The position numbers were made by a program, and so were the translations under genes. Shown one piece after another: positions 19,836 through 21,417 of a DNA stretch of 64,000 bases. The notes below the pieces were generated by a model. It was not told the origin of the DNA and did no database searches. It saw only the letters and a program-made list of their open reading frames with translations. Positions within the stretch are counted from its first letter, which is position 1. Every line of letters starts with the position of its first letter. Source of the stretch: Haloplanus salinus (GTDB taxonomy: Archaea; Halobacteriota; Halobacteria; Halobacteriales; Haloferacaceae); NCBI RefSeq assembly GCF_003336245.1, contig NZ_QPHM01000003.1, forward strand, positions 310,001-374,000. Direction: 5' to 3'.

Positions 19836-20610
19836 CGAATTCGCTCTTATTCAGGGTGTGAACGACTTCTAACACCCTTTCGCGCTCAGGCTTATATACC
19901 AATACGGGGCTAAGGACGTATGCCGATGGAGGTGATTCGTACTGTCAAGGTCAAACTCGACGTTCCCACGGAGCGGTGCGATGACCTCCATCAGACCAAA
20001 GATCAGTTCCTCTACTGCGCGAATACCGCTGCAGCGTGGGCGTGGCGATACCCCGACGACTGCTATGTGACCTCCAGAGAGAAGGCCGGAAGCGCTCTCT
20101 ACGAGAGGCTACGCGAAGAGACGGACTATCTGCATGCGAACCTCGTCCAGAAAGGAATCCGTCGCGCTATCGAGGCCGTGACGAGTGGGGTTACTCGCCT
20201 GGAGAAGGGAGAGAACACGAGTCAGCCACACTTCGATGCGTGGAGTGTTGTCTACGACAAGCGGAGTGCGACGTTTCATCGCGACCACGTTTCGCTCTCA
20301 ACGGTGAACGGGCGCGTTGAGTGTGAGTACGTGCTTCCTGACAACGCCGAGGAAACGCCGATTGGTGAGTACCTCCAGAACGAGCACTACGAGTTCCGTA
20401 CGTCCACGCTGCAGTACGACCGCAGGACAAAGTCGTTCTATCTTCACGCGCGGATGCGCCGAACCACCGACGAGCAAGGTCAGTCTACGGCTTCTCGTGA
20501 GGACGCCAAGCACAGAACAGTCCTTGGTGTCGACCTGAACGTGGACGGCTCGCTCGCCGTGACTTCGACGGGCGCGTTCATCGGGAACGCCGACGAGATG
20601 AATCATCGAC

Positions 20611-20664
20611 GTCACCAGAAGCCAGCGGCTTCTGGTTGGCTCACGAGAGCGCCGCTCTCGTGAA
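20611..20664. repeat. Double perfect hairpin inserted in tnpB
   Basis: ACCAGAAGCC (20614-20623) pairs with GGCTTCTGGT (20627-20636) around the loop AGC. TCACGAGAGC (20641-20650) pairs with GCTCTCGTGA (20654-20663) around the loop GCC. Both stems are 10 bp and perfect with 3-base loops. Removing this block restores the expected TnpB reading frame around NHRR-REFEK. It looks like a miniature palindromic element or a folded-back insertion. Confidence 0.7.
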
Positions 20665-21122
20665 CGCCGAGAGTTCGAAAAGACTCGCGGGTCGATGCAA
20701 CGGACGGGAACGCGGTCAGCGCACCTATCGATTCAGTCGATACAAGACCGCGAACATCGCTGGATGCAGGACGAACTCAACCGTGTCTCGAATCGGATTC
20801 TCGACGAAGCCCGCGACTACGAGTGTACACACATCGCGTTCGAGAACCTGACCGACATTCGCACACGGATGGCTGGTGTGAAGCGATTCCACGCGTGGGC
20901 GTATAGACGCTTATTCGAGTACGTCGAGTACAAAGCTGAGATGGTCAGTATCGAGGTAGAGCAGGTGAATCCGGCGTACACGAGCCAGCGGTGCTCGTCG
21001 TGTGGGTGCACCCGCGAAGCCAACAGGCGGTCGAAACACCAATTCGCGTGTCAGACGTGCGGGTACGAACTGAACGCAGACTACAACGCGAGCAAGAACA
21101 TCGCTCGCAAGTTGCTGAAACG

Positions 21123-21276
21123 CCTCCACTCGAGGCAAACGTCTTCGAGTGGAGGTGCACCCTGTCAGTGTGCGCTGACGTCAGGGACGCTAACCCTGAA
21201 CGGCGAATTCCACGCCTCCGTCAATTCGACGGCAGAAGGGGAGTCCACTGACAAGCCCACGAAGTCAGCCGTGGGC
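21123..21276 (+). other. Right-end hairpins of the 19.9-21.3 kb element (likely guide-RNA region)
   Basis: CCTCCACTCGA (21123-21133) and TCGAGTGGAGG (21145-21155) form a perfect 11-bp stem inside the tnpB 3' end. GCCCACG (21255-21261) and CGTGGGC (21270-21276) form a second stem across the stop region. In IS200/IS605 elements the end of tnpB plus the right end encodes the TnpB guide (omega/re) RNA and carries the hairpin recognised by TnpA. The element probably ends near 21281. Confidence 0.4.
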
Positions 21277-21417
21277 AACTGACGTGTAGCTGAAACGGAG
21301 GGAGTCGGAGACGTCCGGCCACACCTCAGAGAATCGAACCGGCTGGTTCTCAGAGACGGACTCGCTCCAGTTCCTGAACAGCGACGACGTGCAGCCGCCC
21401 AACCCCAGAGACAACCA

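Follow-up and report, generated by a model that had tools for sequence, protein, structure and literature searches.

The 64-kb stretch of Haloplanus salinus DNA analysed here (the window) contains a tnpB gene of the IS1341/IS605 type, at 19920-21282, that is split by a 55-bp insert (Table 1). The reading frame open from 19920 runs into a stop at 20663, inside the insert, and the frame downstream picks up again with REFEKTRGSMQRTG; the 3' half of the gene carries a Cas12f1-like TNB domain (PF07282). The insert lies between CATCGAC and GCCGAGAG and consists, in order, of GTC, hairpin 1, TGGC, hairpin 2, and AC. A preliminary description of this DNA had placed two perfect 10-bp stems with 3-nt loops in a block from 20611 to 20664; the stems, the loops and the start are borne out, and comparison with homologues moves the end to 20665, which gives 55 bp (1 mod 3). 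Since 55 is not divisible by 3, the window copy breaks its gene. The limits were set against uninterrupted tnpB homologues, with 1-3 nt of the junction ambiguous in the alignment. Hairpin 2 becomes 11 bp with 1 nt between the arms when extended by a repeat finder. This is the sole double hairpin in the window with stems of at least 9 bp and a gap of at most 6, and 20 dinucleotide shuffles of the window yielded none. As single-stranded (ss) DNA, the element is predicted to fold at -21.6 kcal/mol (z = -5.7; none of 200 shuffles was equally good), and in this fold the CGT and ACG at its base can pair.

Table 1. Coordinates of the double-hairpin element and the interrupted tnpB in the window
Feature	Position	Strand	Details
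Double-hairpin element	20611..20665	+	55 bp, GTC...AAC; based on uninterrupted homologues and a CM R1 score of 86.7 bits
Hairpin 1	20614..20636	+	ACCAGAAGCC-AGC-GGCTTCTGGT; stem 10 bp (perfect inverted repeat 20614-20623/20627-20636), loop 3 nt; covariation
Linker TGGC	20637..20640	+	conserved
Hairpin 2	20641..20663	+	TCACGAGAGC-GCC-GCTCTCGTGA; stem 10 bp (perfect inverted repeat 20641-20650/20654-20663), loop 3 nt; covariation
Left target flank	20607..20610	+	CGAC (consensus CGNC)
Right target flank	20666..20669	+	GCCG (consensus GYC)
tnpB 5' part	19920..20610	+	76-84% amino acid identity to intact homologues read
tnpB 3' part	20666..21282	+	with TNB domain (PF07282)

All five tnpB homologues read at the site (L099-L102 and L104) lack the block; for example, CATCGACGCCGAGAG in a homologue corresponds to CATCGAC[55 bp]GCCGAGAG in the window. 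Two other loci (L103 and L124) fall outside this motif count, and their alignments cross the site with a gap of insert size. Apart from the ambiguous 1-3 nt, no target sequence is duplicated. Thus, these uninterrupted homologues provide the empty sites among TnpB relatives that the preliminary description had proposed to look for, and they support its view that a mobile insert has shifted the frame of a protein that is continuous without the block. In none of these close homologues is the block normal coding sequence. The genome has another tnpB, at C3:54301, that holds this insert too, likewise out of frame and with the loops unchanged. Identity between the two inserts is 100%, against 90% and 88% for the adjoining 60 bp on either side; one copy probably came to be present in both tnpBs by duplication and local conversion.

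The block is, in all likelihood, one copy of a haloarchaeal family of non-autonomous, mobile double-hairpin elements, mostly 54-57 bp long, that share the constant frame GTY-[hairpin 1]-TGGC-[hairpin 2]-RAC. Filled and empty alleles are present between close relatives, and family copies are dispersed at unrelated loci. A BLAST search of the block against its own genome returned 8 places, and a covariance model (CM R1) returned 33 at E<=0.01, opposite-strand matches included. The same model matches 52 of 60 haloarchaeal relatives, with 1-52 matches each, including 45 of the 47 near-complete genomes; the two-hairpin block thus recurs across haloarchaeal genomes, the first check that had been suggested for it. 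In a sample of the phylum, the covariance model matched 22 of the 24 genomes that belong to the order and none of the 124 from outside it; 106 of the unmatched genomes are unlisted, and their kinship is inferred from sort order. The exact core is present in 119 stretches of GTDB genomes; among the 80 matches listed, nearly all are from Halorubrum, together with Halobaculum, Halorientalis and metagenome-assembled genomes (MAGs). A control search with the reversed pattern gave no matches, a search of viral contigs for exact matches gave none, and a plasmid search gave five records with matches. Template switching can make perfect palindromes, and the tnpB block might therefore be a local product of this process instead of a mobile insert; however, near-identical sequences are dispersed at unrelated loci and genomes, and we find this explanation scarcely credible.

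In 29 aligned copies, 96.6% of the stem cells are paired, and 40 cells are compensatory, with both sides changed (0 of 500 shuffles equalled this); the conservation of helix 2 arises in part because this helix was the search pattern. Such covariation, together with the strong fold, would be expected of a regulatory RNA or terminator that is kept by selection and is not mobile. However, the element is found in both orientations and within the coding frames of unrelated genes, close relatives have clean empty sites, and an Rfam search with the element gave no match, so that this alternative is very improbable. Template-switch correction of palindromes could generate the stem covariation without selection. 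Across 80 copies, CGTC-hp1-TGGC-hp2-AACG is nearly constant, and the hairpins within it differ and are interchanged. Some copies pair two units of the second type (L295, L296, L301 and L313), and others are chained through a shared AACGTC (e.g., L271, L275, L310 and L314). In the Halorubrum-type copies, 50 of 71 triloops of hairpin 1 and 49 of 79 of hairpin 2 are GNA or its complement, and pairs of reverse-complementary loops (TCC/GGA, TTC/GAA) are frequent. GNA triloops form very stable DNA hairpins, which hints at a stage as ssDNA.

The double-hairpin element is also a module of a mosaic intergenic repeat of ~300 bp (L003, L004, L005, L006 and L008; in Halorubrum, L128-L207), which has the ends CACCTCGAAAGCCCC and GGGGCTTTCGAGGTG and further hairpins, CCCCTTTCAGTCCCACCC...GGGTGGGACTGAAAGGGG. 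Most Halorubrum copies are modules of this larger repeat, so the spread of many is that of the repeat and not their own. Another double-hairpin type, ATCACCAGAA..TTCTGGT-TAGCAG-TCAGAA..TTCTGA-CGAC, was seen at L079, L081, L082, L084 and L086; at L082 it lies inside an apparent gene with CGACATC on both sides.

Target sites resemble CGNC^GYC; elements enter them between C and G and leave the target unduplicated. In the 35 flank-distinct copies among the 80, the bases to the left of the element are C at -4 (27), G at -3 (23) and C at -1 (33), and those to the right are G at +1 (34), Y at +2 (31) and C at +3 (27), a logo that is somewhat biased because flanking columns entered the training of CM R1. 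Two other descriptions of the target were considered and rejected. A long target palindrome is not apparent, the dyad being weak (8 of 35 copies have CGVC^GYCN, compared with 3.5% of C^G sites in the control), and elements do not as a general rule enter larger hairpins at their tips, as long hairpins at joined flanks are not enriched (p = 0.62).

Statistics favour the suggestion that this is "an element that attacks another element." Of 80 copies, 15 have TnpB-like sequence no more than 700 bp away, vs 7 of 260 control windows (Fisher p = 5e-6), the control matches stemming from 3 of 20 control regions; after flank de-duplication the count is 7 of 35 copies (p = 3e-4). IS605-type ends are frequent hosts. 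Copies at L286, L288, L289, L292, L305 and L308 are inserted in an apparent right-end hairpin (TTTAGCC^GTGGG-like), which we take to be of the IS605 type, and those at L336, L337 and L339 lie beside or within left-end palindromes upstream of tnpA. By eye, the elements at L282 and L294 interrupt the GIDLG^VNSLA codons of two tnpBs, presumably a RuvC-I-like motif. Three different elements in three genomes (L321, L336 and L339) occupy the same spot, GGGATACAGC^GCCG, in an apparent left end of IS200/IS605-type elements, which suggests a hot spot or hairpin turnover.

Not all copies in genes are out of frame. Open frames through the element were read at nine relatives' loci and at three named loci, and the element is in frame in five recognisable genes, where it is 54 or 57 bp in every case. 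All five copies are in reverse orientation and are read in one frame, yielding 18-19 hydrophilic residues whose pattern is ES...LASQ...SGD or a near variant. By domain, four of the hosts are RNA polymerase A' (PF04983; RpoA'), aldehyde dehydrogenase (PF00171), acyl-CoA carboxyltransferase (PF01039) and an S9 peptidase (PF00326); the fifth we take to be a shikimate-kinase-like gene. Empty alleles cover three of the five. In G006, RpoA', whose PDB match is Rpo1N, is longer by 54 bp, placed between GACGGC and GAGGAGGACGG, and the predicted peptide of this insert contains VRESGALASQPEAVASGDE. RpoA' was matched in 20 other genomes; 17 of these were read and lack exactly those 54 bp, one (G038) has another insert, and the reading did not extend to G039 and G043. 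The aldehyde dehydrogenase of a genome of the same genus (G197) and the carboxyltransferase of G042 each lack exactly 19 residues, and residues 353-378 of the aldehyde dehydrogenase are unmatched in the PDB comparison. The RpoA' of G038 (L384) has a different insert of 13 residues in the same loop; thus, this loop tolerates insertions. Elsewhere, a 53-bp copy in MAG QS_3_64_16 (L202) causes a frameshift in a chemotaxis-transducer-like gene. At L349 and L350, elements lie at the 3' end of an apparent gene that is presumably dnaK, and at L349 the element apparently provides the stop codon.

The element would move as hairpin-forming ssDNA, with a host or IS enzyme acting in trans and linking its two ends, GTC and AAC, to a C^G target that has been nicked, by a route that may be HUH/Y1-like or may be another single-strand route. 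A copy with a length not divisible by 3 breaks the host gene, and those of 54 or 57 bp persist in conserved genes as an insert of 18-19 hydrophilic residues in one fixed frame. Both the hairpins and the absence of target duplication are compatible with an ssDNA (HUH) route, and the latter also with an IS200-type TnpA. Mobilisation by IS200/IS605 TnpA, as initially proposed, is one candidate mechanism. Y1 transposases are present in 35 of 60 relatives; the 47 near-complete genomes comprise 32 with element and Y1, 13 with the element and no Y1, and 2 with neither. The carriers without Y1 include genomes with 40, 27 and 18 element matches, and the number of matches does not track the Y1 count (Spearman 0.19, p = 0.2). 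Seven haloarchaeal TnpA proteins tested are of the IS200 type, and all fall far below the cut-off for RAYT (model NF047646). None of the copies examined is the end of a tnpA element.

These observations also bear on the initial comparison with palindrome-associated elements (PATEs), i.e., miniature IS605 elements of fused left and right IS200/IS605 ends that are moved by TnpA. Such an element would have hairpins and no target duplication, the copies within IS605-type ends and adjoining tnpA would suit it, 32 of the 45 near-complete carriers have a Y1 match, and haloarchaeal PATEs that consist only of termini, 52 bp long, are reported in the accessible portion of PMC3119063. However, the hairpins lie 3 nt from the element ends, in contrast to the 20-50 bp that extend beyond the palindrome in the PATEs described there, and the IS605-type ends read have other palindromes, into or beside which the element is inserted. 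Given also the 13 carriers without Y1, assignment to the PATEs does not hold up well and appears unlikely.

With the double-hairpin family, hairpin mobility of the REP/RPE-like kind reaches into the archaea, and into a group some of whose members are genetically tractable. Because clean empty/filled pairs exist in single-copy genes and the hosts are tractable, the enzyme that moves CGTC-type hairpins becomes directly testable. Landing in frame in working genes is a known behaviour in bacteria; here, conserved archaeal proteins gain ready-made peptide inserts from mobile DNA. More speculatively, and with considerable doubt on our part, the elements might represent a class of mobile DNA of the haloarchaea's own: a 55-bp hairpin pair, moved as ssDNA by a possibly non-HUH enzyme, that disarms IS605/TnpB elements and repeatedly equips essential proteins, RNA polymerase among them, with a standard hydrophilic peptide.

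In the open-access literature searched, we recognised no paper describing the double-hairpin family; the accessible part of PMC12306157 contains no word starting with "halo," and that of PMC10969869 names only MITEs of Halobacterium and Haloquadratum. The nearest known kinds are CGTC-tagged REP dimers, Rickettsia palindromic elements (RPEs) and the haloarchaeal PATE/SMR elements, with membership established for none, and the family fails at least one defining feature each of CGTC REPs, PATEs, SMR-A and REPIN/RAYT. Like the PATEs and SMR-A as portrayed in the accessible text of PMC3119063, it is haloarchaeal and tiny, makes no target duplication, and resides in IS605-type elements and palindromes; with SMR-A it shares preferential insertion into IS605-type elements. 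In the same text, SMR-A of Haloquadratum walsbyi measures about 110 bp and has prominent inverted terminal repeats, whereas our elements are mostly 54-57 bp and have only GTY/RAC mirrored at their ends. Both PATEs and SMR-A are set apart by description, the PATEs also because the palindrome does not resemble IS605-type palindromes nearby.

In REPIN/RAYT systems, a palindromic dimer with a GTAG tag moves as a unit by means of the RAYT enzyme. The double-hairpin element is likewise a palindromic dimer that acts as a unit; however, its tag is CGTC, and the TnpA proteins tested are not RAYTs by the above cut-off. Fungal mitochondria contain mobile elements of two adjacent hairpins with variable loops, which our family resembles by description only and which, unlike it, are organellar. 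RPEs are small palindromic DNAs that insert in frame in conserved proteins. The in-frame copies in five genes, all in one frame and with empty alleles for three, are like RPEs in this regard, although RPEs, compared by description only, are longer than our two short hairpins.

CGTC-tagged REPs and their head-to-head dimers are bacterial (Di Nocera et al. 2013, PMC3733652), and the accessible part of that paper, which also names the RPEs, includes no archaeal repeat among the CGTC REPs and names only bacterial phyla in its survey. There, stems are 8-9 bp with AT at the start, loops are 4-5 nt, and the tail is CCA; in contrast, our stems are 9-11 bp (mostly 9-10), loops are mostly 3 nt, AT occupies the first two stem positions in only 6 of 35 copies, the linker is TGGC, and the core is CAGAA. 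The family is also restricted to haloarchaea, with none found among the 124 genomes outside the order in the phylum sample. What is shared is the outer CGTC tag (29 of 35 flank-distinct copies; CGTY in 32) and the head-to-head arrangement of hetero- and homodimers with tags outside and hairpins inside, both of which the search model favours, as well as stems and loops that vary, insertion into both genes and palindromes, and, in the accessible text for the bacterial side, no dedicated transposase known. We tentatively entertain the possibility that the bacterial CGTC-tagged REP dimers, REPIN- and RPE-like in character, have an archaeal branch in the double-hairpin family.
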